The notes beneath the pieces were generated by a model. It ran no database searches. It saw only the letters and a list, made by a program, of their open reading frames with translations, and was not told where the DNA came from. The position numbers and the translations under genes are program-made. Below, piece by piece: positions 25,014 through 41,019 of a stretch of DNA of 41,531 nucleotides; position 1 is the first letter of the stretch, and every line of letters starts with the position of its first letter. The stretch covers positions 1-41,531 of the forward strand of contig JAIRQN010000027.1 of assembly GCA_031256445.1 (NCBI GenBank), read 5' to 3'. The stretch is from Treponema sp. GTDB taxonomy: Bacteria > Spirochaetota > Spirochaetia > Treponematales > Breznakiellaceae.

Positions 25014-26165
25014 ATGAATGAAAATGAGAAAAAAACAGTATTAATCAACGGTATAGCATACAGTCCGCACAAACCGCTTATTATCGCCGAATTGGGCACT
25101 TCCCATAATGGAGATATATCGAGAGCGAAAGAAATGATTGACGCGGTACGGCAGACAGGAGCCGATTGCGTAAAATTTCAAATGGTTATAGCCAGCGAAA
25201 TTCTCCACCCGAATACAGGCGAAGTCGCCCTTCCCGGAGGAAATATCAGACTGTATGACCGGTTCAAAGAACTGGAATCGCCTCCTGAATTCTTTAAGGA
25301 AGTGAAAAATTACGCAGAATCCAAAGAGCTTTTATTCCTGTGTACCCCTTTTGGTTTAAAAAGCGCGTCAATTTTAAGGGATTTACAGCCGCAGGCGGTA
25401 AAAATCGCGTCTCCGGAACTGAATTTTACAGGATTATTAAAAGAAATCGCAGGCTGGGAACTGCCGGTTTTGCTTTCCAGCGGCGTATCAAAGCTTTCAG
25501 ATATTGAAACTGCTGTAGAGATACTAAAAAGCGGCGCAATGAAAGCAAACAATAAACAAATTCCCGATTCCCGGATATGCCTACTGCATTGCGTTACTTC
25601 CTATCCTGCTGCGGAAACCGATTACAATTTAAGAGTTCTGCCTCTCCTTTCGGAGGTTTTCGGAGTCCCTGTCGGAGTAAGCGATCACAGCGCTGACAGC
25701 GCGTTAATACCCGCGCTTGCGGTATGCATGGGCGCCTGCGTAATTGAAAAGCATTTCTGTCTGTCAAGATCCGATCCCGGTCTTGACGACCCAATCGCCC
25801 TGCCGCCTGATGATTTTTCGCTGATGGTAAAAGCTGTCAGACAGGCGGCGCAAGCCGGGCCTGAGGAAACGCTTGCGGTTTACAGAAACAAGCGCGGAGA
25901 AGCGCTGATTGAAAGCATACTGGGGAACGGCATTAAGGAACTTGCGCCCTGTGAAAAAGCGAATTACCGTTATACGAACCGGTCCATTCACGCGTTACGG
26001 GACATTGAAAAAGATGAAATAATAAAAAAAAGCGATTACGCGGTTCTGCGAACGGAAAAAAATCTCCGGCCCGGCCTTGAACCATTTTGGGAAGACGCGA
26101 TAGAAGGGAGAACAGCGCGGAACTTTATTCCCGCCGGGGAAGGAATTCGGTTCGAAGATATTTAA
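25014..26165 (+). CDS. NeuB-family sialic/pseudaminic acid synthase
   Basis: A 383-residue NeuB-family enzyme that condenses phosphoenolpyruvate with an N-acetyl-hexose to make a nonulosonic acid (neuraminic, legionaminic or pseudaminic acid) for surface glycans. The TIM-barrel start 'PLIIAELGTSHNGDISRAKEMI' region, 'ADCVKFQ', 'CTPFGLKSA', 'LLSSGVSKLSDIE', 'LLHCVTSYPA' and 'GVSDHSADS' are all visible, as is 'VIEKHFCLSRSDPGLDDP'. The last ~65 residues ('NRSIHALRDIEKDEII... EGIRFEDI') form the antifreeze-like SAF domain. The exact sugar cannot be told. No neuA/neuC or pse partners are in the window. It overlaps the last gene of the APE-type cluster by 4 bases, tail to tail. Confidence 0.85.
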   Translation: MNENEKKTVLINGIAYSPHKPLIIAELGTSHNGDISRAKEMIDAVRQTGADCVKFQMVIASEILHPNTGEVALPGGNIRLYDRFKELESPPEFFKEVKNYAESKELLFLCTPFGLKSASILRDLQPQAVKIASPELNFTGLLKEIAGWELPVLLSSGVSKLSDIETAVEILKSGAMKANNKQIPDSRICLLHCVTSYPAAETDYNLRVLPLLSEVFGVPVGVSDHSADSALIPALAVCMGACVIEKHFCLSRSDPGLDDPIALPPDDFSLMVKAVRQAAQAGPEETLAVYRNKRGEALIESILGNGIKELAPCEKANYRYTNRSIHALRDIEKDEIIKKSDYAVLRTEKNLRPGLEPFWEDAIEGRTARNFIPAGEGIRFEDI

Positions 26166-26971
26166 ACGGCGGCAGCCGGGTGAATTTCTTCCGGCGGGAA
26201 AAGCGAGCCGAAAATTTCATTTGTCAGAAGTTTTGCGGATGCTGACTGGCAAAGATCTTTATATTTTTCCGGGGTAATTTCTTTTCCCATGGTAAGTTTA
26301 TAAACATAGCGTTCACGCGTATTAAAACCTCTCCATGGATCTTTTTTTCCCAGGCCGAATTTATCCGTGCCTCCTATTTTCACAGGCACGATTGAGCAGC
26401 CGGAAGCAAGGGCGATACGGGCGGCTCCTTTTTTTAAAATCACTTTGCCGGATCTGCGGGTTCTTGTTCCTTCAGGAAATATAATAAGGCAGTTGCCCAT
26501 TTCAAGTGATTCTGCGCAGGTTTGCATTAAACCGTTAAAGTCAGGGTTATTCAATATATAGAGCTGACGCACTACTCCTGTCAGGATATTGTGACTGAGG
26601 TATGCGTTTACAATACAGTCGGCGTTTGGGATTAACGCAATCAGCATTACCACATCAAGAAGCGAGGGATGGTTGGCAACTACAACCTTTGATGAAAGGC
26701 TGCGGTAATTTTCCCGGTTGTCAGGCTCAAAATTAACAATTCCCAGAAAATGCATCATTCCTATAAAAAACCTAAATGAAAAGGAAATAAAACGCCTTCC
26801 GTATTTTTGAAACCTCAGTCTTGAGCCGCAAAACAGGCGCATCGGCGGAAGAACCAAAATCGCGACAAGTACCGAGCCAAGGCCAAAGAAAAAGAACGAA
26901 AACCATTTTACAAAAACGCGCCAGCAATATAAAGGCCAGTTTGTCACAGGAGGAAGATCAGGGGGAAACAT
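26162..26971 (-). CDS. apeD: Lysophospholipid/glycerol acyltransferase (ApeD-like)
   Basis: A 269-residue PlsC-type acyltransferase with an N-terminal membrane segment (about residues 18-45), the catalytic HX4D as 'NHPSLLDVV' (about residues 93-101) and the acceptor motif 'FPEGTRTRRSG' (about 165-175). The HX4D box has Pro-Ser in place of the usual Gln/Ser. In aryl-polyene clusters the acyltransferase is thought to take part in attaching the polyene to its lipid anchor. It overlaps the preceding ketosynthase-like gene by 14 bases and is the last gene of the cluster. Confidence 0.85.
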   Translation of the reverse strand: MFPPDLPPVTNWPLYCWRVFVKWFSFFFFGLGSVLVAILVLPPMRLFCGSRLRFQKYGRRFISFSFRFFIGMMHFLGIVNFEPDNRENYRSLSSKVVVANHPSLLDVVMLIALIPNADCIVNAYLSHNILTGVVRQLYILNNPDFNGLMQTCAESLEMGNCLIIFPEGTRTRRSGKVILKKGAARIALASGCSIVPVKIGGTDKFGLGKKDPWRGFNTRERYVYKLTMGKEITPEKYKDLCQSASAKLLTNEIFGSLFPPEEIHPAAAV

Positions 26972-27641
26972 GGATATCCCCGCAAAGCAGAAGCTGTTTT
27001 AAAAAAGCAAGAGGGTCATCTTCATTTATAAATTGCGAAAGCCCTGCCTTAAAGGCAGTATCCTGCACTCTGTTACGCGATAACAAAAGGCCGAACGCGG
27101 CGGGAATATTCCCCGCAGACAAGCTGTCGTACTCATCAGGACCTTTTTCATCCGCGTATACAAGTATGATCTCCCGCGCCGGGCCGCATAAAAGAGCCGC
27201 CTGAGCCGCTTTCAGTCCTGACGAAAAAGAATTATTATCCGGATAAACAGCGCAGTACCCGCCTTTCAGTTTCAATGCCATTGCGGCCAGTGCGACAGGC
27301 GCGTTAAAAACGGAAAGTGAAAATACAGCCGGACTGATACCGCCTTCTTCTATCAGCGTTTTATTTATCTGAAACTGCTTCGTTATTTCTCCGCGAAAAG
27401 AAAGAAAAATAATTTTTGTATCTTCTGATACAGGAAGAAGATCGCGGATTACCTGTATTGTCATTCTGGAAATCTGGCTTAAGCGCCTGCGGAATAACGA
27501 GTCGGTAAAAGCAATATCCGGACCTTTTTTATCAGGCAATATATCCCTTTTGCCCAAAGCCCATTCATTCCATTCTTCCCTGCCGCCAATTCCCGGCGCC
27601 CATGCGCTTAAACGCGTAACGCAGATATCGTTATCTGTCAT
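26958..27641 (-). CDS. apeC: Ketosynthase-like chain-length factor (ApeC-like)
   Basis: A 227-residue protein resembling only the N-terminal half of a ketosynthase (Ketoacyl-synt_2 type), e.g. 'FSLSVFNAPVALAAMALKLKGGYCAVYPDNNSF' region and 'PAAFGLLLSR' at the end. It has no catalytic Cys-His-His set, as expected for the non-catalytic partner that pairs with the ApeO ketosynthase and helps set chain length in APE systems. It overlaps the methyltransferase stop by one base and the acyltransferase start by 14, so it is translationally coupled to both. Confidence 0.8.
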   Translation of the reverse strand: MTDNDICVTRLSAWAPGIGGREEWNEWALGKRDILPDKKGPDIAFTDSLFRRRLSQISRMTIQVIRDLLPVSEDTKIIFLSFRGEITKQFQINKTLIEEGGISPAVFSLSVFNAPVALAAMALKLKGGYCAVYPDNNSFSSGLKAAQAALLCGPAREIILVYADEKGPDEYDSLSAGNIPAAFGLLLSRNRVQDTAFKAGLSQFINEDDPLAFLKQLLLCGDIHVSP

Positions 27642-28771
27642 TAATCGTTTTCCGTGTTTTTTATGCGGCAGCGAAGAAGCGAATAATCGTTGGAACCCAG
27701 CTTATGCCAGTCCTGCGCTATATCGAAACCGGCGCTTTCAACCGCCTTTTTAAATTCCTTGTAGTTGTACATCTTGCTGTTGCCGTTTGCCATACAGGTA
27801 AAATATAGAGACGTAGCCTGAAGCGAATAGGATGCGGCTTCAAAACGCTGCATATCCCAAAAAGGCTCAAAAATAAAAATATCCGCCGCCTTTCCTGACG
27901 CGCGGCGGACTTTATTTAAAATCCGTCCGGCATCTTCAAGTGAAAAACAGTCAAGAAACTGACTCATCCAGATAACGTCAGCTCCGCCTGGAATTGCGGT
28001 TTCTTCGTTTAGAACATTGCAGGCGCAGACGCTTATTCTGTGTTTAAATCCGGCTTTCTCAATTTCATTTTTGGCCGTCCGTGTCTGTCCCGGCAGATCG
28101 ACAATAACCACTTCTACGCCGGGATTGAACCGGCAGCAGCGTATGGCGAATTTAGCTGTATTCCCGCCTATGTCAATTATTTTTTTTGGGTTATTCGCGA
28201 AAACAAGCGGAAGCGCTTCCTCAAATCCAATATCAGAATAAAAATGATCAAACTCAAACCAGCTCTTTTTTACCTTATCGGGAAGCGCGGAAAGGACTTC
28301 ATAAATCGTTTTTCCTTTGTATCTGAAGACTCCCATCCCGTTTGGTTTTCCGTCTTTTATGGATTCTGCAAGCTCGAACGCCCCCTTATAACATACGTCA
28401 TTAACAAAGTTAAAATTGACCTTTGTCATTTCGTCTTCCAGAAGGAACCACCCGGTTTTCCCAAGAATAAAACGATCGTCATTTTCTTCAGACTGCCCGT
28501 CTTCTGATTTTATTTTCACAAGATTCATGCCCAGTGCGATTTCCAGAAGGACTTTTACTCCGTAATATGAAACGCCTGTCTTACCGGCCGCTTCTTCCAG
28601 AGTAAGGCCGTTTTCCGCGGAATCTGATATTGCTTTTAAAATTCCAAGTTCAATAAGAGCCCTTACAGCCTGGTAAGTTAAGGGAGCGAAGGCGATTTTT
28701 TGCGCTTCAAATTTGGCGTCTACAGCTCTGATTTTATCTTTTATATAATTTTCATTTGAATATTCCCGCAT
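27641..28771 (-). CDS. SAM-dependent O-methyltransferase (ApeB position)
   Basis: A 376-residue methyltransferase with an N-terminal winged-helix dimerisation domain ('YQAVRALIELGILKAISDSAENGLTLEEAAGKTGVS' region) and a C-terminal Rossmann domain whose SAM loop is 'IIDIGGNTAKFAIR' (about residues 188-201) followed by 'VVIVDLPGQ'. This two-domain build is that of small-molecule O-methyltransferases. In APE clusters a methyltransferase decorates the aryl head group, so methylation of a phenolic hydroxyl is a reasonable guess. It begins a three-gene block (methyltransferase, chain-length factor, acyltransferase) separated from the second ketosynthase gene by about 100 bases holding a good promoter. 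Confidence 0.8.
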   Translation of the reverse strand: MREYSNENYIKDKIRAVDAKFEAQKIAFAPLTYQAVRALIELGILKAISDSAENGLTLEEAAGKTGVSYYGVKVLLEIALGMNLVKIKSEDGQSEENDDRFILGKTGWFLLEDEMTKVNFNFVNDVCYKGAFELAESIKDGKPNGMGVFRYKGKTIYEVLSALPDKVKKSWFEFDHFYSDIGFEEALPLVFANNPKKIIDIGGNTAKFAIRCCRFNPGVEVVIVDLPGQTRTAKNEIEKAGFKHRISVCACNVLNEETAIPGGADVIWMSQFLDCFSLEDAGRILNKVRRASGKAADIFIFEPFWDMQRFEAASYSLQATSLYFTCMANGNSKMYNYKEFKKAVESAGFDIAQDWHKLGSNDYSLLRCRIKNTEND

Positions 28772-28782
28772 AATTATTAATC

Positions 28783-28811
28783 AGTATGGTGTTAATAATC
28801 CTCCATGTCAA
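28783..28811 (-). promoter_or_regulatory. Internal promoter before the methyltransferase gene
   Basis: On the minus strand TTGACA (28811-28806), a 17-base spacer and CATACT (28788-28783) lie 11 bases before the ATG at 28771. The predicted leader is about five bases, with GGAGG in the spacer but too far upstream to serve that ATG. The remaining gap up to 28873 is A/T-rich and shows no clear terminator. Confidence 0.5.
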
Positions 28812-28873
28812 GCAAAATAAATTACGCCAGTTTAAACCGCTTTTAAAAATAATAAATTTTAAAACAAAATGAG

Positions 28874-30100
28874 TTAAAATCTTTTAAAGATAAGCGAGGT
28901 GTTTATGCCGCCAAAAGCGAAATTATTCGACATGATGTAATCTGTGTCAATTTCCCTGCCGGCGCCTGTTATATAATCCAAAGGACCTACTTCCGGATCG
29001 AGCTCTTCAAGATTCAAATTCGGACAGAACCATTTTTCATTCATCATGTTAATTGAAATCCAGGCTTCTATCGCTCCGCAGGCTCCCAGAGTGTGGCCTA
29101 TATAGTTCTTTAATGTGCTCGCCGGAACCGGTCTTTTAAAAATATCTGCCGTAGCCCAGCTTTCCGCTACGTCTCCCGTATCTGTGGCGGTTCCGTGCGT
29201 ATTTACATAACCAATGGCGTCAGGAGATATTTGCGCGTCCTGAAGAGCCAGTTCCATAGCAATGCTCATCGTGCTTCTGTTGGGGTGGGTAATATGAGTC
29301 CCGTCAGTATTTGTTCCAAAACCGGCGATTTCCGCGATAATATTCGCGCCGCGTTTTATTGCGTGTTCATATTCTTCCAGTATCAGCGTACCCGCTCCCT
29401 CGCCTACTACAAGACCGTCCCTGTTTTTATCGTAAGCAGCCGGGGTTTTTTCCGGGATTTTATTCTTCGCGCTTGCGGCGAAAAGGGTATCAAAAACGGC
29501 GGCATCCATCGCGCTGAGTTCTTCCGCGCCGCCTGCGACCATGATATCCTGAACTCCCTGCTTTATGGCTTCGTACGCGTATCCGATCGCCTGACTGCCG
29601 GATGTGCAGGCTGTGTTGGTGGTTATAATTCTTCCTGTAAAACCGAAAAAGACGCCGATGTTTACGGCGCAGGTTTGCGGCATTGCCTTTATATAGGTAG
29701 TCGCGGTAATTTTTTTTACATCATCAAGAATTAGCATACTGTAGAAATCCAGAAGAGGATCTATGCTGCCCATTGAAGAACCGTACGCGACGCCGCAACG
29801 GCCGTTTCTCAATTCCGGATCTTCAGGATTAATACCGGCGCTTTTAAGCGCCTTGTCGGCGGAAACAAGCGCCAACTGGCCTACCCTGCCAAGTCCGCGG
29901 ATTTTTTTTCGCGGAAAATCCGGCATTTCAAAATCCACCGGAGCGGCAAGCATGGTATTCATATACGTGTATCTTTCCCACTCTTTCATATAACGAACGC
30001 AGTTTTTAAGCGTCTTTAATGTTTTAAATATTTCCTGCCAATCATTGCCAAGGGCGCTTATCACAGAACCGCCTGTTATTACTACCCGCCTTTTCATCAA
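28874..30100 (-). CDS. apeR: Beta-ketoacyl-ACP synthase, elongating (ApeR-like)
   Basis: A 408-residue FabF-type ketosynthase with the full catalytic triad: Cys165 in 'NTACTSGSQ', His302 in 'VNTHGTATD' and His336 in 'YIGHTLGACG'. It would catalyse Claisen condensation with malonyl-ACP. It overlaps the ketoreductase stop as ATGA. In APE systems ApeR is a homodimeric ketosynthase thought to act at a different chain stage from the ApeO:ApeC pair. It is followed by the promoter that precedes the methyltransferase block. Confidence 0.92.
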   Translation of the reverse strand: MMKRRVVITGGSVISALGNDWQEIFKTLKTLKNCVRYMKEWERYTYMNTMLAAPVDFEMPDFPRKKIRGLGRVGQLALVSADKALKSAGINPEDPELRNGRCGVAYGSSMGSIDPLLDFYSMLILDDVKKITATTYIKAMPQTCAVNIGVFFGFTGRIITTNTACTSGSQAIGYAYEAIKQGVQDIMVAGGAEELSAMDAAVFDTLFAASAKNKIPEKTPAAYDKNRDGLVVGEGAGTLILEEYEHAIKRGANIIAEIAGFGTNTDGTHITHPNRSTMSIAMELALQDAQISPDAIGYVNTHGTATDTGDVAESWATADIFKRPVPASTLKNYIGHTLGACGAIEAWISINMMNEKWFCPNLNLEELDPEVGPLDYITGAGREIDTDYIMSNNFAFGGINTSLIFKRF

Positions 30101-30822
30101 TACATTCCTCCATTCACTGATATTACCTGCCGTGTTATATATGCCGCCGAATCAGAAAGAAGAAAAACGGCAAGAGCCGCGACTTCTTCGGCTTTGCCAA
30201 TCCTTCCCATTGGTATTGTCGGAAGAATTTTATCCAAAGGCGCTTCGCTTATCATCGCGGTTTCGATAACCCCAGGAGCGATGCAGTTAACAGTAATGGA
30301 ACGGCTCGCAAGCTCAACGGCAAGCGCTTTTGTAGCGCCTATTATGCCCGCTTTCGCCGCGCTGTAGTTTACCTGTCCCCTGTTTCCCATAAGCCCTGAT
30401 ACCGAAGAAACAGTGATAATTCTTCCCTGTTTTTTACGGCAGAGCGGCATTATTAACGGATGCAGTACATTGAAAAAACTGTCAAGATCTGTGCGCATAA
30501 CCAAATCCCATTCATCATCGCTCATCGCGGGAAAAGCGTTATCAGCGCATACTCCGGCATTGCAGATAATGCCCCAGAAAACGCCGTTTTCCGCGGTATA
30601 CTTTTCCAGTTTTTCGCGGCATTCTTCCCTGTTTGAAACATCAAACTGTATCAAATCTATCCTGCCGCCTTTTGAAAGAATTTCCTTTTCAAGGGACTGA
30701 GCCTGTTCCTTTCCCCTGTTGTAATGCGCCGTTATACTGTAACCGGCATCAGAGGCGGCAAGCGCCGCCGCTCTTCCTATGCCTCTGCTTGCGCCTGTTA
30801 TTAGAACCTTTTTTTCATTCAT
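30097..30822 (-). CDS. apeQ: 3-ketoacyl-ACP reductase (ApeQ-like, FabG family)
   Basis: A 241-residue short-chain dehydrogenase with the NADP motif 'GASRGIGRAAA' near residue 10, 'CNAGVC' near 88, and catalytic Ser140, Tyr153 and Lys157 ('SSVSGLM', 'NYSAAKAG'). It would reduce the 3-keto group after each condensation. The gene starts one base after the dehydratase stop and overlaps the next ketosynthase by four bases. No enoyl reductase is present in the cluster, consistent with product double bonds being kept. Confidence 0.93.
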   Translation of the reverse strand: MNEKKVLITGASRGIGRAAALAASDAGYSITAHYNRGKEQAQSLEKEILSKGGRIDLIQFDVSNREECREKLEKYTAENGVFWGIICNAGVCADNAFPAMSDDEWDLVMRTDLDSFFNVLHPLIMPLCRKKQGRIITVSSVSGLMGNRGQVNYSAAKAGIIGATKALAVELASRSITVNCIAPGVIETAMISEAPLDKILPTIPMGRIGKAEEVAALAVFLLSDSAAYITRQVISVNGGMY

Positions 30823-30823
30823 T

Positions 30824-31327
30824 TTATTTTTCCTCTTTCATGGACATAGCCGTTTCATCGTCCACATCAATAACTGTTAATTTTCCTTCAAGAACCTTAT
30901 TCTCCGTTAATTCCTGTCCCTGACCGGAGAACTCCGCCGCGTTTTGTTCAAAAATTTCTCCTTCGTAAATAAAAAACGAATCCATCCGTTCAACTTCTTT
31001 CGCTTTAACGGTGAGCACTGTCCCGTTTTTAAAAAAAGGAACCGCTATATTCATCCGGGATATTCCCAGAATAAAACCAATCCTGGGCGGCTTTCCTTTT
31101 TCACGGTAATCAATGCCTGTATAGGCGGAAATTGCCTGGGCAATAAATTCAAATCCCGCCCATGCCGGAACGCCGTCAGCCTGCGAATCGTAAAAAAGAC
31201 AGTCACTGGTTATCCGGTATTCCGCTTCTATAGACTTTTCCCCCAGATTATAACATTTGACATTGTCAAGCATCAACATTCTGTTTCTATGGGGAATAAT
31301 TGTCAGCAGTTCTTCTTTTTCAATCAT
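30824..31327 (-). CDS. apeP: Hot-dog dehydratase (ApeP-like)
   Basis: A 167-residue hot-dog protein of the 3-hydroxyacyl-ACP dehydratase type: 'LTIIPHRNRMLMLDNV' then 'VPAWAGFEFIAQAISAYTG', where the long helix carries the acidic position of the fold. In APE systems ApeP pairs with ApeI, and the matching ApeI domain is at the C-terminus of the ligase fusion in this cluster. I use the ATG at 31327; a TTG at 31339 would add four residues. The start overlaps the upstream ketosynthase stop. Confidence 0.85.
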   Translation of the reverse strand: MIEKEELLTIIPHRNRMLMLDNVKCYNLGEKSIEAEYRITSDCLFYDSQADGVPAWAGFEFIAQAISAYTGIDYREKGKPPRIGFILGISRMNIAVPFFKNGTVLTVKAKEVERMDSFFIYEGEIFEQNAAEFSGQGQELTENKVLEGKLTVIDVDDETAMSMKEEK

Positions 31328-32567
31328 TATTGTTTCCAAGAATTAAGCTGACATTGCATCCGCCAAAAGCGAAACTGTTGCTCATGCAGACAGAAGGTTT
31401 ATTTGCGTTTCCCTTAACTGCGGGAAGGAAAGGCGCCTGTTCATCTTTTACGCCGTCCCAGCAATGCGCGGGAAGCCCTTTTTTTTCCGTCAGTGTCATC
31501 CAGCAAATTGCAGCTTCCAGCGCGCCGGCTGCGCCTAAAGTATGTCCTGTAATCGGTTTTGTTGAACTTGAAGGCGCGTCAGTTTTGAAAACTGATTTCA
31601 TAGCCAGAGATTCTGCCTTGTCGTTTAAATCGGTGCCTGTACCGTGAAGATTTATATATTCTATTTTTTCGCTGTCCAGAGCAGCGTCAAGAAGAGCGGC
31701 TTTCATCGCGTTTGCGGGACCCTGGCCGTCAATACCGGGCGCCGTCATGTGATAGGCGTCACAGCTCTCCCCTGCGCCTAGAAGCTCCACATCGGAAATT
31801 TTTTCGGATGAGAGAAGGAAAAAAGCGGCTCCTTCCCCAAGGTTGATTCCCTTTCTGTTTTTACTGAAAGGATTTGTCAGGCTGTTAGAAACCGCTTCAA
31901 GGGCGTGAAATCCGGTAAAAACTGTCTGCGAGACTATATCAGCTCCGCCGGCTATTACAGCATCGCAGTATCCTGATTTAATAAGTTCCGCTCCTCTCAT
32001 AATCGCGCTTGCTCCTGAAGCGCACGCTGTAGCTATTGTAAAAGCCGGGCCTTTAATTCCGAATTTTTCTGTTATAAACATCATGGCGAAAGACGCGCTC
32101 TGGTAACGCAGGCTGTAATCATCAGGAAAGGCGCATCCGGCAGGAGCGCCGCATCCGCCAGATGCGGCGCAGTTTTTAAAGAACGCGTTATGCGCAATAT
32201 ATGACGCCTCGCTGCCGTTGTCGCAGGAGCCGAAACATACGCCGACTCGTTTCGGCCCGTACATGGAAACCGCCTTTTGCACTACTGGACGCAATTGTTC
32301 AAGAGCGCAGTCAATGACGCGCATTATCCTTGTATTGCCGCCGTATTTTCCGGGCGGGAAACCAGCAGGTGAACCATTGCGCATTGCGCCTGCCGCAGGT
32401 TCCGGCAATTCGCCGGGAATTGTTCCGACAGGAAATTCCGCATTGTTAAATTCGCGCATAACAAAACCGCCCTGAAAACCGGAAAGACAGGATTCGTATA
32501 ATTCAAATCTGTTTCTTCCGGCGCAGCAGACAAGAGCGGGTTCTGACAGAAATATTCTCTTTTTCAT
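31320..32567 (-). CDS. apeO: Beta-ketoacyl-ACP synthase (ApeO-like)
   Basis: A 415-residue ketosynthase with a complete triad: Cys182 in 'TACASGASA', His308 in 'NLHGTGTDL' and His342 in 'TGHTLGAAG'. It is clearly diverged from the ApeR-like enzyme. In characterised APE systems ApeO forms a heterodimer with the half-length ApeC. Here the ApeC-like gene is about 4 kb downstream in another sub-block. It starts 13 bases after the DUF3261 lipoprotein gene. Confidence 0.92.
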   Translation of the reverse strand: MKKRIFLSEPALVCCAGRNRFELYESCLSGFQGGFVMREFNNAEFPVGTIPGELPEPAAGAMRNGSPAGFPPGKYGGNTRIMRVIDCALEQLRPVVQKAVSMYGPKRVGVCFGSCDNGSEASYIAHNAFFKNCAASGGCGAPAGCAFPDDYSLRYQSASFAMMFITEKFGIKGPAFTIATACASGASAIMRGAELIKSGYCDAVIAGGADIVSQTVFTGFHALEAVSNSLTNPFSKNRKGINLGEGAAFFLLSSEKISDVELLGAGESCDAYHMTAPGIDGQGPANAMKAALLDAALDSEKIEYINLHGTGTDLNDKAESLAMKSVFKTDAPSSSTKPITGHTLGAAGALEAAICWMTLTEKKGLPAHCWDGVKDEQAPFLPAVKGNANKPSVCMSNSFAFGGCNVSLILGNNND

Positions 32568-32580
32568 TTATGTATACCTT

Positions 32581-33168
32581 TCACATTACGCTATCTTCCA
32601 GGGAATATGAATATCCCCTCAGATGATTGGTAATTTTTACAGAATTCATGTTTTTTTCGATTTCCATAATTACTGTTTTTCCCTTAAGAACCCGCCTTAA
32701 ACCTCCTGTATCTTCCAGAACTAGCCCGCAGTCTTTTAAAGCCTTTGCAAGCGCCGCGCTTTCATAAAAACACAACTGGAAATCCGCGATTATATATTCG
32801 GGTTTTAAGGATTTTGGGAATACGGATGATGAAAAATAAATTTCTCCGTTACGCCATGACAGCTCCCCCATATTGGCTCCAAGCTCATTGAAGAGCGTCA
32901 TATTCATCCCTGTCCCGTCGGCAATTACAAGAGCGTTTACCTGAAATTCCTGTTTATCATAAGCCGCTGAAAAAAGCTGGAAACCATTTATCGGGTTTTC
33001 AATATACTGCGCAGGCAGTAGAATAAATCTTGAACTGTTTGTCAGCCAGACATAAAGACTGCCATCTTTCGCCTTTGCGGCTGATACACAGGATGACAAG
33101 ATCGCTGTTATTGTAAATAATAAGGGTATAACAGTAATGGACAAAAAAACACTTTTTTTACAACTCAA
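32581..33168 (-). CDS. apeN: DUF3261-type lipoprotein (ApeN-like)
   Basis: A 195-residue predicted lipoprotein. I choose a TTG start at 33168 because AGGTGAT, complementary to the 16S anti-Shine-Dalgarno, lies 5 bases upstream, and the product then begins with a compact lipoprotein signal ending 'ILSSC' with Cys27 as lipid site. An upstream start at 33225 would add 19 residues and overlap the divergent PPTase gene. The mature part is beta-rich with 'WLTNSSRFILLPAQYI', as in DUF3261 lipoproteins of APE clusters, whose role is unknown but presumed to lie in export or anchoring. Confidence 0.7.
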   Translation of the reverse strand: MSCKKSVFLSITVIPLLFTITAILSSCVSAAKAKDGSLYVWLTNSSRFILLPAQYIENPINGFQLFSAAYDKQEFQVNALVIADGTGMNMTLFNELGANMGELSWRNGEIYFSSSVFPKSLKPEYIIADFQLCFYESAALAKALKDCGLVLEDTGGLRRVLKGKTVIMEIEKNMNSVKITNHLRGYSYSLEDSVM

Positions 33169-33191
33169 GATATCACCTGGAGATGAATGAT

Positions 33192-33878
33192 ATGTCATTC
33201 TACATTGGTTTATCGATTTTGTCAAATAATGAAAAAGCGGATAAAAGACGGCAGGCAGGCAGGCGCATTTTATCTGTGTTTGAAGGCAGAGATATCGAAG
33301 AAAGCGACATCGGAAAAGAAGATCAGGGACGGCCTTTTTTTAAACAGCGGCATGCCGATTTTAATATTTCTCACTCTGGATCTCTATTGGCGGTTTCATA
33401 TATCAAGAGAGGGGATACGCGAACCGGCTGCGATATTGAATTTATAAGGACACGCTGCAGAGCGGAAAATATCGCTAAAAATTATTTTTCTTCCGCCGAA
33501 TACGGATATATTTTTTCATCCGGAACATCTGACGAAACAAGATTTTTTGAAATTTGGACATTGAAAGAATGTTATCTAAAATTACGCGGGCTTTCGGTAT
33601 TTGATATGAAAACTTCTCCTTCGTTTATAAAAGAAGACTCCGCTTTTTCGCAGGAAAAATATTTTTTTTCTTTCGGTGAAACCGTTAACACAGAAATTTC
33701 ATTTTATCTTTACAGGATTTCAAATTCTGGCGGACAATACATGATGGCAGTGGCAATTGAAGGCGAAGATGAAGAACCGGAAATAAAAATGTTTTCTCAG
33801 ATTTCTCTGGACTGTAAAAGAATTGTAAAGATAAAAGCCGCCCCTAACCCCGAAGAAACCGTTATGCCGAAAAGATAA
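33192..33878 (+). CDS. Sfp-type 4'-phosphopantetheinyl transferase
   Basis: A 228-residue PPTase that would convert the cluster's two apo-ACPs to holo form using CoA. Motifs are intact: 'GRPFF' (P1), 'FNISHSG' (P2), 'GCDIEF' with Mg-binding Asp81 and Glu83, and 'WTLKECYLKLRG' with Lys125, Glu126 and Lys130 (P3). I use the ATG at 33192, with GGAG 9 bases upstream; the ATG at 33183 touches that GGAG. It is the only plus-strand gene in the cluster, diverging from apeN by 23 bases and overlapping the 3' end of the exporter gene by 82 bases, so its last ~26 codons are antisense to the exporter. Confidence 0.9.
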   Translation: MSFYIGLSILSNNEKADKRRQAGRRILSVFEGRDIEESDIGKEDQGRPFFKQRHADFNISHSGSLLAVSYIKRGDTRTGCDIEFIRTRCRAENIAKNYFSSAEYGYIFSSGTSDETRFFEIWTLKECYLKLRGLSVFDMKTSPSFIKEDSAFSQEKYFFSFGETVNTEISFYLYRISNSGGQYMMAVAIEGEDEEPEIKMFSQISLDCKRIVKIKAAPNPEETVMPKR

Positions 33879-36187
33879 ACGGGCATAAAACTGCTAAGCG
33901 AAAGGGCGCCGAATGAAAGAATTGTGGTTAAAAATGACAAAACCACTCCTGTTAAAACAATTTTTTTGCTGATGCCGCGCGTATTCAGCCTGTCAGCCGC
34001 CTTCTTTGCGTCTGTCATATAAAAAATATAATCAAGTCCAAGGCCGAAAACCAGAACCAAAGCCGCGGCGGAGAAAAACCCAATAGGAATTCCGTTAGCT
34101 GCAAGCGCCGCGATTACCGATAACACCTGAAAGAGCGGAACTGAAATTATTTTTATAAATGTCCGCAGAGGATAAATAAAGAAAATAATAACCGCGATAA
34201 CAACATACGCCGCCAGGAAAAGCCCAAGCATTGTCCTTGTAAGGGTATCAAGATCGCGGCCTATGTCTTTTGCCTTGTTTATAAAGTAAACATTATCAAA
34301 TTCTTCGGCTATTGCCCTGAAAACCGCCTCGTCCGAGGGTTTAAGAGGCAAAACGCACGTATAGGTCTTCCCTTCTGTCTCTCCAATCCACAGGTTTGAA
34401 ACTCCGGCCTGGGAAGGAGCGTTTTCGGGAGAGCAGTAATTTTCCGAAGAAGCAAACTCCAATTTAAAATTATCAGCGTAACCCGAAGGAAAACCAAGGT
34501 TAAAAAACTGCTCCTCTGCCAGAGGCAGCAGCGCTTTCATAGCCTCGTAGGTTCTTTGCTGCGTTTTTACAGAAGGGACAAAAACGGAAGTTGCAAGAAT
34601 ATCGCCAGAATTTCCGCGCAGCGCCTCTTCTTTAAGGCGGGAAACAAGCCTTTCTTCGTTTTCCAGCGTTTCCTGGGCGCCGCCTCCTTCCACAATAAAA
34701 TACCATCCAGGCGATCCGTAATCCAAAACAGCCGCCGCCCTTTTTTCAGATTCCATCAAATTATCAGACATTGTATACAGCGAAGAAATATTATTTTCAA
34801 TTTTAATGTTTGAAAAGTTAAACCCAATAACAAAAATTATTATAATAATAAGGCATATTAAAACAACAGGCCCTGTAAAAGCCGGCAATAAATTTTTATT
34901 TTTTTTATACGACTCAATATTTTTTACCGGGGGAACTTTCAGGCGGGGAAAAATGCAATACGCAGTAAGGAATGAACTTAAAAGCCCTGTCATGGAAAAA
35001 AGGGCGAACTGCCTGAATATGGGGAACGGCGCAAAAAAGAAAGCAAAAAAACATATTTCTGTGGATATAAAACAAATGGATATTTTTTTTAATATATGCG
35101 AGCGGATTTGGGCGCCGGTTTGTAAAAGGGGGTTTTTCTTCCAATGTATAAAAAAATGCACTGAATAATCAACGCAGGTTCCGATTAGCGTAGTGCCAAA
35201 AACAAATGTGATAATGTGGATTTCCCTGAAAAACAGCAATGCGGCTGCCGCCGCAAGGCCAAGCGAGATTCCTATATCCACAATGGAAAAAATTACAGGC
35301 AAAGGAGAGCGGAACGTATACAAAAACAGCAGCAGAATAATTATCAGCGTAACTGCGCTTATCAGCGATACTTCCTTCTGGGCGCCCGAAGAACTTTCGT
35401 AACTGTGAAAAGGCATTCCGGAAAAATAAAATTCCAGACCGGCGGACTTATCTTTTATTTCTGAACAGACGGCGTATATTCTTCCTATTACATTTCTGTC
35501 CGCTTTAAGAGTCACAGCGTCTGTCACAAGCGTTATGCGCATTAAAATGTACCATGCGCCGTCAATTTCGGCGGCAAGAACATCATCTTTCAGCGTCATA
35601 TTTCCGGAAAACAGCGAAGAGAAAAGAAATTCCTGCATCCGCCTTTCGGCCAGAAGAAAGGGATCGCCTTCCAGATTTTCCAGCGGAACAAAGTTAAACG
35701 CGCCGAAAGCCGACGCGAGCGCATCAAAGGCTATCTCCTGCGCTCCTCCGTTTTCCAGAATGGATAATGTCTGACTCCCCGCGATTGTATAGCGGTGATC
35801 GTAAAGATAGCCGCTGAATTCCCTGATAACGTCCGAATCATAATAAAAAGAAACAGATTCAAATTCATTATTTTTACATAGCTCCCCGTAAAGAAGTACG
35901 GCTCCGTTTTTGGCGTCATGGAACGTATCCGCGCAGGCGAGAATGATAATTTCCCTTCCGTTTCTGCCGCTGAAAACCGCGTCAGCTTTCATTACGGCTT
36001 TTGACTGGCTGGATTTGGGGAGCATATCAAACAGTGATGTATTTATTCGCAAAGGGCCGGCAAAGAACAAAGAAAAGAGCAAAAGCAGAGGAATTGAAAT
36101 GTGAACAAAAAGCCAGACAGCCAGTTCGAAGGAAGGCGAATTTTTTAAAAAACCCGGATCAGGGATATGTGAAAAGGGATTTTTCAT
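33797..36187 (-). CDS. apeM: MMPL/RND-type lipid exporter (ApeM-like)
   Basis: A 796-residue membrane protein with the MMPL/RND plan: TM1 (about residues 22-45), a large periplasmic loop to about 245, a block of five or six helices ('VTLIIILLLFLYTF', 'VFGTTLIGTCVDYSVHFFIHW'), a second periplasmic loop, and a final block of helices ending 'AAFIFTILLQSREI'. The segments 'TCVDYSVHFF' and 'GLGLDYIFYM' hold the Asp-Tyr pairs of the proton relay. It would move the polyene-lipid from the inner membrane. The ATG at 36187 gives 'MKNPFSHIPDPG'; a TTG at 36256 would extend it by 23. It overlaps the LolA-like gene by 29 bases. Confidence 0.88.
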   Translation of the reverse strand: MKNPFSHIPDPGFLKNSPSFELAVWLFVHISIPLLLLFSLFFAGPLRINTSLFDMLPKSSQSKAVMKADAVFSGRNGREIIILACADTFHDAKNGAVLLYGELCKNNEFESVSFYYDSDVIREFSGYLYDHRYTIAGSQTLSILENGGAQEIAFDALASAFGAFNFVPLENLEGDPFLLAERRMQEFLFSSLFSGNMTLKDDVLAAEIDGAWYILMRITLVTDAVTLKADRNVIGRIYAVCSEIKDKSAGLEFYFSGMPFHSYESSSGAQKEVSLISAVTLIIILLLFLYTFRSPLPVIFSIVDIGISLGLAAAAALLFFREIHIITFVFGTTLIGTCVDYSVHFFIHWKKNPLLQTGAQIRSHILKKISICFISTEICFFAFFFAPFPIFRQFALFSMTGLLSSFLTAYCIFPRLKVPPVKNIESYKKNKNLLPAFTGPVVLICLIIIIIFVIGFNFSNIKIENNISSLYTMSDNLMESEKRAAAVLDYGSPGWYFIVEGGGAQETLENEERLVSRLKEEALRGNSGDILATSVFVPSVKTQQRTYEAMKALLPLAEEQFFNLGFPSGYADNFKLEFASSENYCSPENAPSQAGVSNLWIGETEGKTYTCVLPLKPSDEAVFRAIAEEFDNVYFINKAKDIGRDLDTLTRTMLGLFLAAYVVIAVIIFFIYPLRTFIKIISVPLFQVLSVIAALAANGIPIGFFSAAALVLVFGLGLDYIFYMTDAKKAADRLNTRGISKKIVLTGVVLSFLTTILSFGALSLSSFMPVYLFGITVSSGLGAAFIFTILLQSREI

Positions 36188-36839
36188 GATTATCCAATTG
36201 CGCCGGATAGCTGTGGTTTGAAAGATTATATATAATACTGTCTCCGTTCTGTTCAAATATTTGAATTGATCTGATTGCGGCGTCTCCTTTCATTATTATT
36301 TTTTCGGCAAAGGCGTTAATCGCGGTGTCTGAGGGAGAAAGTCCTATTTCCCAGACATTTCCCGCGCTCTGATAAAAAACCTTAAAATTATCAACAAGAG
36401 CGCGGCTGTTGCCGGAAAAAACCGCGTTTAAAACATCGGCCATTCGCAGAAACGTTTCATTCCCCTGCGCGCTTAAAACATTTTTTTGCCCTCCCGGTCT
36501 TGACTGAATAAGAAAATCCTTTCCCAGAGCAAGAGTGGACGGAAAAGGTTTAACAGTATTCCAAACCATTCCAAGCTGCGCCGCTATTATAAAATTACCC
36601 GATGATTTTAATGATCTGTTATAACGGCCAAAAATTTTCTCCTGATCAAAGCTGCCGCGTATTAAAGGATGCTCTGACAATTTTTGGCATGTCGCCAAAA
36701 AGGCTTTTTCCGTCTGCGATCCAAGCGGGTAACGGAAAACCCCATCGCCTGAGGACTGCGCATTGAGCAGGCAGGGCGTGAAACCAAAAATAAACAGTAA
36801 ACCGCATAAAAAGGCAGATTTGCCAGACGCGCAGATCAT
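36159..36839 (-). CDS. apeL: LolA-like outer-membrane carrier (ApeL-like)
   Basis: A 226-residue secreted protein. From the ATG at 36839 a signal peptide of about 28 residues is seen ('SAFLCGLLFIFGFTPCLLNAQ'), followed by a LolA-like domain with 'LIRGSFDQEKIFGRYNRSLKSSGNFII' region and 'VWNTVKPFPSTLALG', matching the LolA 'F.Q.k....l..sG.f.......W....P....l' pattern. Such proteins ferry lipids or lipidated products across the periplasm; in APE clusters one is always paired with the exporter. It overlaps the thioesterase stop by four bases (ATGA). Confidence 0.85.
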   Translation of the reverse strand: MICASGKSAFLCGLLFIFGFTPCLLNAQSSGDGVFRYPLGSQTEKAFLATCQKLSEHPLIRGSFDQEKIFGRYNRSLKSSGNFIIAAQLGMVWNTVKPFPSTLALGKDFLIQSRPGGQKNVLSAQGNETFLRMADVLNAVFSGNSRALVDNFKVFYQSAGNVWEIGLSPSDTAINAFAEKIIMKGDAAIRSIQIFEQNGDSIIYNLSNHSYPAQLDNHEKSLFTYP

Positions 36840-37294
36840 TGTTTTTCCCTTTTTAAAAGCGCCTCTACCTTGTCTACAAGAATTTGCGGACACAAAAAGC
36901 AGGATTCCATTTTTCTCATGTCAATTGCCATTTGCGTGCTGACGCCTTTTGTAGTTATCCGCCCTGTCGCGGCATTGCGGATTTCGTATCTTATCCGCAG
37001 GCGGTTTTCGTATTCCACAAGAATCGCCTTTACAACAGCCCTGTCTTTGAATTTGAGCGAATCAAGATATTTGGCGGAAATTTCTATAACCGGAAAAGCA
37101 AAACCGGACTCTTCCATCTCGTAATAATCGTATTTGATTTTCGCAAGAAGGCTGCGCCGTCCTGTTTCAAAATAATTAATGTAATTACCGTGCCATACAA
37201 TCCTCATTGGATCAAGATCGTAAAACTCAACGGAAATTTCCGTTTCCGCGTAAATGTTATAAGGCCCGTTATCCTGATTTTTTTTCATTTTCAC
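36836..37294 (-). CDS. apeK: 4HBT hot-dog thioesterase (ApeK-like)
   Basis: A 152-residue YbgC/FadM-type acyl-CoA/ACP thioesterase. The signature 'VEFYDLDPMRIVWHGNYINYFETGR' region (about residues 23-47) contains the catalytic Asp in 'DLDPM' and the following helix. It may release or proofread chains bound to ACP. It overlaps its neighbours on both sides by four bases (ATGA), which indicates coupled translation with the glycosyltransferase and LolA-like genes. Confidence 0.88.
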   Translation of the reverse strand: MKMKKNQDNGPYNIYAETEISVEFYDLDPMRIVWHGNYINYFETGRRSLLAKIKYDYYEMEESGFAFPVIEISAKYLDSLKFKDRAVVKAILVEYENRLRIRYEIRNAATGRITTKGVSTQMAIDMRKMESCFLCPQILVDKVEALLKREKQ

Positions 37295-38088
37295 TCCCTT
37301 TCATTTTCATTTTTACGTTTAATATTCCGCGTTATCAATACCGGAAAACGAATTAACATTCCGAAAAAAAGCCTTGCAAACGTTAAACTAATCCGGATAT
37401 TGTCGTTTACTGCGTTAAAATTTGAAACGCCGTCCTTCGGGTAGTTCACCTTTATAGGGTGGTAATCGGGATAGATTTTTTTCCAGAAAAGACGCACCAG
37501 AATTTCAGGATCAAAGCCCATTCGCTTGTCCATAAAATTATTTTTAATTATGTTAAATGTTTCATTAACAGGATAAATCCTGAAACCGCACAGAAGGTCT
37601 TTGAGTTCTGCGGATAACGTGACGGCCATTCCCCAGAAAGTGGAAATCCTGCGGCCTTTTACCCTGCTCTTCGGAGCCGTATCGTCAAATTCCGGATATC
37701 CGCAGATTATTTTATCCGGGTATTTAACTGACTGTTCAAGGAAAAATTCAATCCTTCCTGTGTCATGCTGGCCGTCCGCGTCTATCTGAAGAGCATGGGT
37801 TATACCCATTTCCCGCGCTTTTTTAATGCCTGCGCAGACAGCCCCGCCTTTGCCGGAATTTTTTTCCAGTCTTACCAGAGTGATTAAACTGTCTTTTTGG
37901 TCCGCCTCTTCAGATGAACGGGAAACATCACAGCAGGACGCGGCGTAAGCAGCCAGAATATTTTTGGTTTCTTCATCGTTTCCGTCATCCACAATTATTA
38001 CCGGCATCCTGAATGAAGCAAGATACTCCGCAAGGACGCATGCTGTTTTTCCGTGACGGTAAACCGGTATAATAAAGCCATGTTTCAT
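37291..38088 (-). CDS. apeJ: Family 2 glycosyltransferase (ApeJ-like)
   Basis: A 265-residue GT-A glycosyltransferase: 'FIIPVYRHGKT' start, nucleotide-binding 'VIIVDDGNDEET', 'NSGKGGAVCAGIKKA' and the metal-binding 'QIDADGQHD' (about residues 100-108). It lacks long C-terminal membrane helices, having only one hydrophobic stretch near the end ('LTFARLFFGMLIRFPVLI'). The dolichol-phosphate-mannose-synthase-like pattern suggests transfer to a membrane lipid. It is coupled to both neighbours by ATGA overlaps. Its role would be glycosylation of the polyene or its anchor. Confidence 0.88.
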   Translation of the reverse strand: MKHGFIIPVYRHGKTACVLAEYLASFRMPVIIVDDGNDEETKNILAAYAASCCDVSRSSEEADQKDSLITLVRLEKNSGKGGAVCAGIKKAREMGITHALQIDADGQHDTGRIEFFLEQSVKYPDKIICGYPEFDDTAPKSRVKGRRISTFWGMAVTLSAELKDLLCGFRIYPVNETFNIIKNNFMDKRMGFDPEILVRLFWKKIYPDYHPIKVNYPKDGVSNFNAVNDNIRISLTFARLFFGMLIRFPVLITRNIKRKNENERE

Positions 38089-40508
38089 AACGGCGCGACT
38101 ATCCCTGAGGAAAATGAAATTCCGCCGTCACAGGAACTCAAATTAAAAGAAATTATATTACTGTTATTTTCAAGCCTAAGGCGCATTGCTGTAAAAGGAC
38201 GGACAAGATTTGAAAATTTAACCCGTTTAATCTGCGAAAGACTGATCTTTGTCCCAAAATAACGCGCTGAAAACCGCATTACAAGTTCAATTTGCGCAAC
38301 CGCGGGAAGTATCGGAAAATCGGGAAAATGGCCGGTAAAATACGGGCTTGTACCAGGAATGATAAATTCCAATGTTACAGAATTATCATTTTTTTCAATT
38401 AACTTTTCATTCTCCAGACTTTTAAAACCGTCTGTCATAAATTCAGGACTGATGTTATTTTTCATAGAGGATTTTTTTTCATCTGCGAAAAGCAATTTTA
38501 TATCTTCTTTTTGCTTTTTTCCCTGCGAATTCAGGGGAAAAGCGTCAGGATAACGCCATTTTTTGGGGATTACAAGATTTTCAAAATATTTGATCAGGTA
38601 TTCTCTCCAGAATTTATTAACAGCATTTTTTTCCATGTTTAAAAATTTTTCTTTTCCGGTATCGTTAAAAACCACCGCGGCGGCAAGATACTGCCTTTTG
38701 TCTTCCATGGCGATTACGCTCACGTCACTGACAAGGCCGGATTGCAATATTCGCTCTTCCATCTCTGTAAGCGAAACGCGCTTCTCTTCGATTTTAACAA
38801 CCGAATCCGTTCGTCCTTTTAAAATGAATCTTCCGTCTTCCAGCATATCAGCCATGTCAGCGGTAATAAAGCCGGAACTTTCCTTTATGTACGGAGATCG
38901 TATAACAAGACATCCGTCTTCGTTTCTGCTGAGCTGCGCGTTGTCAAAAGCTGTCCACTCAGGGCCGTTTGAAGACTGCCTCCACGCGATGCCGGAGGTC
39001 TCCGTGCTGCCGTATACTTCAACAGGCCAAAAACCAAATATCTGACTTGTCAATTTCGCAGTTTCCGGGCTTAACACTCCTCCCGACGTGAATATCCATG
39101 GAGAGTTAAGGTGAATGCCTGAATGTTTTTCTATTTCTACAATGCGCTTTAAAAAGGCGGGAACCGTTATGATCATATACTGAGCGCCGGTAAGTTTTTC
39201 AAATTCATCCGGGAACTCTATTCTGTTTCTTCTGAAAGGGACAGCCGCCGTAAAAGGAAGGAGTATCGAATACAAAAGCCCGTAAATATGATGCTGGTTT
39301 ACAGTTGAACATAACTTGCGTTTTAAAAATTCTTCTCCCCACATGGAAAGCGCAAAACGGTTGTCATTTTCAAATTCGGTAAGCCGCTGCTTTACCGCTT
39401 TCGGTTTGCCTGTGCTGCCCGATGTATACATGATAATGGAAGTCTCATCGGCGTTAATAGCGGGAACATCTTCCGGCAAAAGCCGTCGCGGCTCAATATC
39501 TGAAACCAGCAGATCATTAATATCAAAAGTGTTATCCGGTTTCTCGCCCCTGGCCGGGAACTTTTCAAAATTAATATCCGTAAGAAAAGGCGCGCATTTG
39601 CTTTCATCTCCGCAGGCTGCTCTGATTTCCGCGGCGTAGGACGGGCTTATATTGGCGCTAAGCAGTATTTCCTTTTTGCACTGAAGCAGCGCCGTAAACG
39701 CCAAAAGGAAGAGCCAGCAGTCATCGCAGTATAAAAGCCATCTGCCGCTGTCAACTGAATTTATTTTACGCCTGAGAATCGCGGTTCCTTCAAGAAAATC
39801 TCCCCATGTTTTATGTCTGGATTTTTCCCATGCGTCTTCATAGCACATAACAGCCGAAAGGGGGCGCGAATTATTTTTAAAAGCCGAAAGCGCAATTGCC
39901 CTGGGCATTTTTTTCTGCACATTTTTTCTTATTATGAACTCAACAGTAAAAATAAGACCCGTTAAAATATAGGAAACCGCCCCGTTATAGGCGGTCCACA
40001 TTATGTCAGAGCCGGAAAAAACAGTAAAAGAGGCAATGCTTCCGTTTAAAACAAAAAAGCAGCACCAGGCGATTGTAACTTTGCGGCAGTAGGCCTCTAC
40101 CCTCTTTTCTGTCATGGAGCCTTTGATGGTTTTATCGGCAAGCGTTGCGAAGCGGAAGATCATATTCGGAGCTGAAAAAAATGTAGAGGCGAAAGCGGCA
40201 AGAAAAATGACATTCATAAGCACAGGGTAAAATTTCAGGACTACCGGAGAATTTGTGATTAGGCAAATAACGCCCAGGCATAACAAAAGAAGAGAACTCT
40301 GAAGGAATGTCTTTCCCTTTGCCTTGCCGCGCCCTGTGCCAAGAATGAAAATAAGGACAGCAAAAACAATAACAAAAACGGAAAAAGAACGCAGCGGAGC
40401 CTTGCGCACTGCAAGGAAATAGAAAATTAAAACAGGATAAAGCGCGGCCGCAGTATAAAAGAGAACCGCAGAAAGGCGCTTTGCTGTTTCTTTATACCCG
40501 CCGGTCAT
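38085..40508 (-). CDS. Fused membrane domain + acyl/aryl-AMP ligase + dehydratase (ApeG-ApeH-ApeI)
   Basis: An 807-residue protein joining three parts usually encoded separately. Residues 1-200 have about six membrane helices like the COG4648 protein ApeG. Residues ~205-675 are an adenylating ligase: P-loop 'YTSGSTGKPKAVK' (361-373), 'YGSTETSG' (499-506), 'GRTDSVVKI' (565-573) and the C-terminal Lys in 'NSQGKKQK' (660-667). Residues ~700-807 are a FabZ-like hot-dog domain with catalytic-type His in 'TGHFPDFPILPAV' (725-737), equivalent to ApeI. It would activate the starter acid, load it on ACP at the membrane, and supply half of the ApeI:ApeP dehydratase. It begins at the ACP stop and overlaps the glycosyltransferase by four bases. 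Confidence 0.88.
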   Translation of the reverse strand: MTGGYKETAKRLSAVLFYTAAALYPVLIFYFLAVRKAPLRSFSVFVIVFAVLIFILGTGRGKAKGKTFLQSSLLLLCLGVICLITNSPVVLKFYPVLMNVIFLAAFASTFFSAPNMIFRFATLADKTIKGSMTEKRVEAYCRKVTIAWCCFFVLNGSIASFTVFSGSDIMWTAYNGAVSYILTGLIFTVEFIIRKNVQKKMPRAIALSAFKNNSRPLSAVMCYEDAWEKSRHKTWGDFLEGTAILRRKINSVDSGRWLLYCDDCWLFLLAFTALLQCKKEILLSANISPSYAAEIRAACGDESKCAPFLTDINFEKFPARGEKPDNTFDINDLLVSDIEPRRLLPEDVPAINADETSIIMYTSGSTGKPKAVKQRLTEFENDNRFALSMWGEEFLKRKLCSTVNQHHIYGLLYSILLPFTAAVPFRRNRIEFPDEFEKLTGAQYMIITVPAFLKRIVEIEKHSGIHLNSPWIFTSGGVLSPETAKLTSQIFGFWPVEVYGSTETSGIAWRQSSNGPEWTAFDNAQLSRNEDGCLVIRSPYIKESSGFITADMADMLEDGRFILKGRTDSVVKIEEKRVSLTEMEERILQSGLVSDVSVIAMEDKRQYLAAAVVFNDTGKEKFLNMEKNAVNKFWREYLIKYFENLVIPKKWRYPDAFPLNSQGKKQKEDIKLLFADEKKSSMKNNISPEFMTDGFKSLENEKLIEKNDNSVTLEFIIPGTSPYFTGHFPDFPILPAVAQIELVMRFSARYFGTKISLSQIKRVKFSNLVRPFTAMRLRLENNSNIISFNLSSCDGGISFSSGIVAPL

Positions 40509-40756
40509 CAGGCTTTTTGAATGAGGGGATAGAGTAATTCTATCACATCCTGAACAGTAACAGCCTTTTTAAACATTTCGGGATCGATCTTCCCGGGAAT
40601 AAATTCCTTCATTTTTACAAGAAGATCCACCGCGTCAATGGAGTCCAGTTCAAGATCGTCATAGAGTTTTGCCTGCGGGGTAATGGAGGAAGCATCCAAC
40701 TGGAATTCTTCGACCAAAATATCCCGCATCTTATTTAAAATATCTTCTTTTGTCAT
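40508..40756 (-). CDS. apeF: Acyl carrier protein (second in operon, ApeF-like)
   Basis: An 82-residue ACP with the phosphopantetheine Ser in 'DLELDSIDAVDLLVKM' (about residue 39) and the typical acidic four-helix pattern. It overlaps the first ACP by four bases and shares its final base region with the start of the ligase fusion. Two distinct ACPs at the head of the operon is a hallmark of APE clusters, one likely carrying the starter and one the growing chain. Confidence 0.92.
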   Translation of the reverse strand: MTKEDILNKMRDILVEEFQLDASSITPQAKLYDDLELDSIDAVDLLVKMKEFIPGKIDPEMFKKAVTVQDVIELLYPLIQKA

Positions 40757-41019
40757 GATGCCGCTCCTCCCGAAGCCTCAATATAGGCTGCCAAAGCGTC
40801 TACCGATGCAAAATGCTTTTTATTATCTGCGTTTTCCGCGGAAAATTTTACGCCGAATTTCTTTTTTAACGCCACACCCAATTCCAGCGCGTCAATAGAA
40901 TCAAGACCCAGCCCTTCGCCAAAAAGAGGATCGCCGTCCGCGATATCCTCCGGTTTTACATCCTCAAGCTCCAGGGCGTTAATAATCAATTCTTTAATTT
41001 GCTGCTTTAAATTGTCCAT
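40753..41019 (-). CDS. apeE: Acyl carrier protein (first gene of the APE-type operon, ApeE-like)
   Basis: An 88-residue ACP with the modified Ser in 'GLGLDSIDALELGVALKKKFG' (about residue 40). Unlike the second ACP it carries a short hydrophobic 'YIEASGGAAS' tail. It is the first gene after a good promoter and has a GGTAGG-like ribosome binding site about 6 bases before the ATG. Confidence 0.92.
   Translation of the reverse strand: MDNLKQQIKELIINALELEDVKPEDIADGDPLFGEGLGLDSIDALELGVALKKKFGVKFSAENADNKKHFASVDALAAYIEASGGAAS

Follow-up and report, generated by a model that had tools for sequence, protein, structure and literature searches.

The ape cluster of Escherichia coli CFT073 is a close described counterpart of the locus analysed here. 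A direct reading of that cluster and the published account (PMC8253772) both give ApeG (c1198), ApeH (c1197) and ApeI (c1196) as separate, overlapping neighbours in this order, as the original prediction had said of characterised ape loci. The overlaps are short, 4 nt between apeG and apeH and 14 nt between apeH and apeI. A partial fusion is known from Acinetobacter baumannii, in which ApeI is joined to ApeH, is described as a heterodimer with ApeP, and was used in this joined form together with ApeP in an in vitro assay (PMC8041823). In the A. baumannii locus compared here (L208), a 552-aa ApeH-ApeI protein is preceded directly by a separate 184-aa ApeG gene. The Xenorhabdus ApeI:ApeP heterodimer 6qsr is the best solved relative of both the ApeI domain and the ApeP protein described below.

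The window, that is, the whole 41,531-nucleotide stretch of Treponema sp. DNA that was analysed, shares with E. coli CFT073 the genes, their order and their neighbours (acyl carrier proteins upstream, ApeJ to ApeN downstream), with homology domain by domain. It differs in that the three separate genes of E. coli are one fused gene, and in that ApeJ lacks the acyltransferase half that belongs to the same protein in E. coli. As in A. baumannii, ApeI lies at the C-terminus of ApeH and ApeP is separate; the A. baumannii enzyme, however, has no membrane anchor by fusion, ApeG being a gene of its own. In 6qsr, ApeI is a free subunit in a soluble pair with ApeP, whereas in the window it is a domain of a longer chain. 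The new part is therefore the membrane domain in the same chain, since the ApeH-ApeI fusion is already known from Acinetobacter. No description of the triple fusion was found in the openly accessible papers searched.

The fusion gene

The gene at 38085-40508 had been predicted as a single 807-residue frame with all ligase motifs and the GHFP dehydratase motif intact. The frame is real and lies on the minus strand, which corrects the strand; it opens with ATG and runs for 807 codons with zero internal stops. In one chain the ORF encodes a six-helix membrane domain of the ApeG type, an AMP ligase of the ApeH type that is intact, and the dehydratase half ApeI (Table 1). Residues 1-200 match E. 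coli CFT073 ApeG (40% over 111 aa, E 5e-25), residues 201-682 match ApeH (28% over 483 aa, E 3e-57), and residues 691-807 match ApeI (30% over 81 aa, E 7e-11). The domain search that the prediction called for placed two families above their Pfam cut-offs, AMP-binding PF00501 at residues 286-510 (65 bits, cut-off 29.9) and ApeI-like PF22818 at residues 708-789 (30.4 bits, curated cut-off 28.5). The membrane domain is assigned to ApeG by homology with E. coli, and its COG4648 label is taken from PMC8253772 rather than from a COG profile. The ligase C-terminal family PF13193 reaches 16 bits in the window protein, against a cut-off of 24.5, and is found at E<0.01 in 14 of 20 homologues.

The ligase carries the motifs expected of the ANL (AMP-binding) ligases: YTSGSTGKPK at residue 361 (motif A3), YGSTET at 499 (A5), GRTD at 565, KIEEKR at 572 (A8) and QGKK at 662 (A10). 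The dehydratase motif GHFP is present at 726. Across 20 aligned triple fusions K370, E503 and the catalytic K664 of the ligase are invariant, as is the catalytic H727 of the dehydratase. The best PDB match of the ApeI domain is 6qsr chain A (E 2e-8).

The surrounding cluster

The region 26162-41019 holds what an ape cluster comprises: a KS/CLF pair, an initiating KS, a KR, ApeI and ApeP, the ligase, acyl carrier proteins, and transport genes of the LolA, MMPL and DUF3261 types. Genes were identified by their best E. coli ape matches together with Pfam/NCBIfam, ApeN by DUF3261 only. The stop of apeF overlaps the start of the fusion gene, and the stop of the fusion gene overlaps the start of apeJ, in both cases as ATGA; the fusion gene thus lies within one tightly packed operon. 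In the ApeP of the window the histidine of GHFP is replaced.

The acyltransferase half of ApeJ, which sits between apeJ and apeK in relatives, is absent from the corresponding place in the window cluster (37291-37294), and a 58% identical copy lies on another contig (G000 contig C88:4481-5440). The same genome also carries a second, standalone ApeH-type ligase, 60% identical, on contig C101 (L054:7720-9225); no other ape gene was detected within 17 kb of it.

Table 1. Positions of the fusion gene domains, the other ape genes of the window, and two sets of sites in relatives.
Feature	Position	Strand	Evidence
ApeG/COG4648 membrane domain (residues 1-206)	39891-40508	-	ApeG homology, AlphaFold, hydropathy and loop charge
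ApeH-type AMP-forming acyl-ACP ligase domain (residues ~201-682), motifs intact	38463-39908	-	PF00501, motif table, ApeH homology
Variable H-I linker (residues 681-700)	38409-38468	-	homologue alignment
ApeI dehydratase half (residues 691-807 and stop), GHFP at 726	38085-38438	-	PF22818, 6qsr chain A
ApeE acyl carrier protein, predicted starter acceptor	40753-41019	-	PF00550; 54% to E. coli ApeE
ApeF acyl carrier protein	40508-40756	-	PF00550; 45% to E. coli ApeF
ApeJ glycosyltransferase half	37291-38088	-	PF00535; 43% to E. coli ApeJ
ApeK thioesterase	36839-37294	-	PF13279; 44% to E. coli ApeK
ApeL, LolA-like	36159-36893	-	PF03548
ApeM, MMPL transporter	33797-36256	-	PF03176
Phosphopantetheinyl transferase, inside the cluster on the opposite strand	33183-33878	+	PF01648
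ApeN, DUF3261 lipoprotein	32581-33225	-	PF11659
ApeO KS	31320-32567	-	E. coli ape match, Pfam/NCBIfam
ApeP, predicted partner of the ApeI domain	30824-31339	-	PF22817, 33.0 bits (cut-off 27); 6qsr chain B, E 9e-9
ApeQ KR	30097-30822	-	E. coli ape match, Pfam/NCBIfam
ApeR KS	28874-30100	-	E. coli ape match, Pfam/NCBIfam
ApeB methyltransferase	27641-28771	-	E. coli ape match, Pfam/NCBIfam
ApeC chain-length factor	26958-27641	-	E. coli ape match, Pfam/NCBIfam
ApeD acyltransferase	26162-26971	-	E. coli ape match, Pfam/NCBIfam
Standalone ApeG homologues	L202:5457-6218, L205:130-843, L204:2644-3357, L052:7704-8345, L203:5407-6114, L206:5229-5936		
Ten-A (A10) runs in apeG of relatives, examples among others	L035:8618-8627, L084:6136-6145, L096:4707-4716, L097:5978-5987, L100:1075-1084, L113:1451-1460, L123:6133-6142, L157:1802-1811		

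The fusion among relatives

Homologues were surveyed across Spirochaetota and plasmid records. ApeG, ApeH and ApeI (G, H and I below, with J for ApeJ) stand in one frame in 37 of 76 related ligase sequences from three families of Spirochaetia, a count that includes tips in which the first half of ApeG is split off at the ten-A run discussed below. Triple fusions of the same genus come from independent assemblies (G004, G038, G010, G023 and G001) at 55-66% identity. Others are found in further genera of the same family, in a second family, whose members include a Treponema brennaborense MAG (L098) and rumen Treponema, and in a third, within the same class. Among named relatives, the nearest are for the most part MAGs called Treponema or Spirochaetaceae, whose isolate codes suggest termite gut and rumen as sources, and for the window we infer a termite-gut origin.

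Close relatives with the genes apart had been named in advance as grounds for doubting the fusion. Such relatives exist (L118, and L102/L103 with G-H and a separate I) alongside the common fused form and, read from the sequences compared, their presence is evolutionary lability rather than artefact. The window is not alone in its G-H-I order, which is widespread among spirochaetes and whose parts are often split or re-joined. An apparent triple fusion in A. baumannii, a tblastn piece covering residues 119-779, was rejected because the annotation has a stop between ApeG and ApeH-I; ApeG is separate in A. junii, Caballeronia and Cupriavidus too.

Membrane anchoring and a proposed mode of action

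Six transmembrane helices are predicted in the ApeG domain, with both termini inside, and its AlphaFold model is entirely helical (pLDDT 84). By hydropathy and the positive-inside rule, positive charge clusters at the N-terminus, in the TM2-TM3 and TM4-TM5 loops and at the C-terminus, so that both ends, and hence the ligase, would be cytoplasmic; the TM1-TM2 loop is also positive, in mild conflict with a simple topology. The predicted topology supports anchoring of the ligase at the membrane by the fused ApeG, and with it the earlier proposal that starter activation and one dehydratase half are tied there. Confidence in the full-length model is low in the C-terminal part of the ligase (pLDDT 66), and the packing of the domains is therefore not read from it. 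Among 19 homologues the G-H junction (residues 191-210) is gapless with an identity of about 0.6, whereas the H-I linker (681-700) has an identity of 0.11-0.12 and gaps of up to 75%. In three genomes of the third family (L066, L067 and L071) the fusion begins at about TM3, with no TM1-TM2 match upstream; the first hairpin of ApeG may be dispensable there.

Frame, homology, motifs, cluster content and conservation together make it likely that the product of the window ORF is a start-and-dehydrate module of an aryl-polyene type II synthase, built as a single chain and anchored in the membrane. The six helices of ApeG would sit in the inner membrane with both ends cytoplasmic, the last running through the conserved junction into ApeH. 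ApeH would adenylate an aryl acid starter and load it onto ApeE, encoded just upstream. The variable linker of about 20 residues would carry ApeI, which with the separate ApeP would form a one-site dehydratase acting in every elongation cycle. The benefit of the tether would be that the starter is loaded, and dehydration takes place, at the membrane, which is also the site of the later attachment of the polyene to lipid and of its export. The putative product would be an aryl polyene built from a hydroxybenzoate-type starter. That an ApeI:ApeP heterodimer would assemble on a membrane-anchored platform, as first suggested, is plausible by analogy with 6qsr, and the ApeP partner is indeed encoded in the same cluster.

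A possible role of ApeG beyond anchoring

ApeG has been proposed to be a pyrophosphatase that powers export (PMC8253772). For the window ApeG, no fold or family match in Pfam, Foldseek or VIA-align points to a pyrophosphatase. It is quite possible, though somewhat short of an even chance, that ApeG is more than an anchor and takes part in lipid-head or lipid-anchor metabolism, in which case the fusion would couple polyene synthesis to a phospholipid-like acceptor and not to export energy. Standalone ApeG homologues within the family lie directly upstream of genes for PS decarboxylase and CDP-alcohol phosphatidyltransferase in L202 and L205 (verified by Pfam) and in L204 and L052 (by sequence). 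In L203 the homologue directly precedes a CDP-alcohol phosphatidyltransferase, after which come a choline kinase/nucleotidyltransferase and a BCCT transporter; the arrangement in L206 is the same, its phosphatidyltransferase being the one gene checked by Pfam. This context points to a shared role in lipid-head metabolism rather than in export energy. The evidence is, however, guilt by association, and the model of the ApeG domain adds no fold match to it: Foldseek returned zero matches at E<=0.001, and the rows from VIA-align were generic helical bundles (best Z 9.1), uninformative on function.

Lability of the fusion and alternative explanations

Arrangements within a single genus are G-H-I, G-H with a separate I, G-H with I-J, H-I without a nearby G (without an adjacent G in L044), and G-H-I-J with a dead ligase. 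An intact G-H-I-J in one 1084-aa frame is found elsewhere in the family (L120/L137; L120:425-3679), and I-J forms a single 375-aa frame at L086:7950-9077. On a tree of 76 ligase domains the architecture labels change 24 times, and the starred branches force at least nine changes for G-H-I. Standalone ligases nest among fused ones at three separate places: the C101 ligase of the window genome with those of G021 and G037 (100*), L118 beside a fused relative (100*), and G031/G034/G032. With the tree rooted on a single distant outgroup, the direction of change suggests that standalone ligases arose at least three times. At L118:5493-9637 the order is G, I, J, a second ApeE-like carrier protein copy, and H; in this close relative the ligase and the extra carrier protein were relocated together.

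In some genomes the ligase of the fusion has decayed or disappeared. The fused ligases of G031 and G034 are devoid of any motif (L047:7086-8756, L049:729-3278) and an intact standalone ligase lies elsewhere (L048, L050). The fusions of G021 and G569 contain no ligase, G running directly into I (L051:8246-9229, L162:3366-4085); a standalone ligase is present in G021, and none was found in the incomplete genome of G569. The window genome, which has both an intact fused ligase and a standalone one, looks like the state before such a loss. Because G-I is kept where the ligase is dead or gone, membrane tethering of ApeI can outlast that of the ligase, which suggests that the ApeG-ApeI link can be kept after the ligase link is dropped.

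The main rival to the membrane-anchored module, conceivable but on the doubtful side, is that overlapping genes gave rise to the fusion as a near-neutral by-product, which only fixes co-expression and stoichiometry and provides no spatial platform. Overlaps such as those of E. coli mean that a single indel can join the genes, and since architecture changes so often on the ligase tree, with splits, re-joins and excisions in close relatives, the benefit of fusion is perhaps weak. Against near-neutrality stand the persistence of G-I after ligase loss, the conservation of the G-H junction and the spread of the fusion through three families. Cleavage after translation, for instance in the H-I linker, with the products working as separate proteins, is improbable: the linker is long and variable and relatives with a separate I exist, but no known cleavage motif was recognised and the linker is as expected of a flexible tether. 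That a sequencing or assembly error joined three separate genes is extremely unlikely, the window assembly being a MAG in 107 contigs but the single frame recurring at 51-66% identity in many independently assembled species and neither junction of the window fusion bearing a homopolymer.

A ten-A run in apeG of relatives

At least 15 relatives, which share descent and are not independent (one genome per species), have a run of exactly ten A, then G, in the apeG loop between TM2 and TM3. In these the gene after the run is one nucleotide out of frame and needs one extra nucleotide to be in frame. In L019/L049 the run has the opposite offset, three relatives have ten A in frame and one has eleven A in frame; where the run in the loop is no longer than eight A, the frame is kept. 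The apeG of the window lacks such a run at this loop and reads in frame constitutively.

Across 155 kb of 21 selected loci there was no further A/T run with a length of ten or more. Genome-wide such runs are rare: G514 has two positions and G487 three, and in each genome one of these lies in apeG. In pairs in which both members have the out-of-frame run, dN is well below dS on both sides of it (for L035/L036, 0.08 vs 0.53 downstream and 1.03 for dS vs 0.13 for dN upstream), and by this measure both halves of the split apeG are under purifying selection. Efficient slippage of bacterial RNA polymerase on nine A or T has been described (PMC5009743), and in Citrobacter tssM1 20-25% of transcripts carry a +1 slip at an A11 run (PMC4256274). 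Restart of translation in place of frameshifting was rejected: in at least 8 of the 15 loci the downstream frame has its first start codon within TM3 or beyond it, and with no such codon before the end of TM3 a restart could not give an intact TM3-TM6.

Slippage appears to fit these data best. We lean towards the view that apeG(-H-I) of these treponemes is governed by a selected slippage site, the full-length fusion arising only from slipped transcripts or ribosomes, as a fixed ratio or a phase switch. Slippage would set a fixed ratio between the full-length enzyme and a short two-helix ApeG peptide; alternatively, phase variation at the run may act as a switch for the pigment lipid.

Implications

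The G-H-I fusion is real and common in its clade and, on the evidence of its motifs and their conservation, functional-looking. It presents a type II polyketide/fatty-acid-like system in which starter loading and dehydration would be physically wired to the membrane. The separate, H-I, G-H, G-H-I, G-dead H-I, G-I and G-H-I-J arrangements form a natural series for finding out what tethering is for. The standalone homologues open a new approach to ApeG, a still unexplained component of a gene-cluster family that ranks among the most widespread in bacteria. If the ten-A run proves functional, uncultured gut spirochaetes would possess in it a conserved element for recoding or switching.
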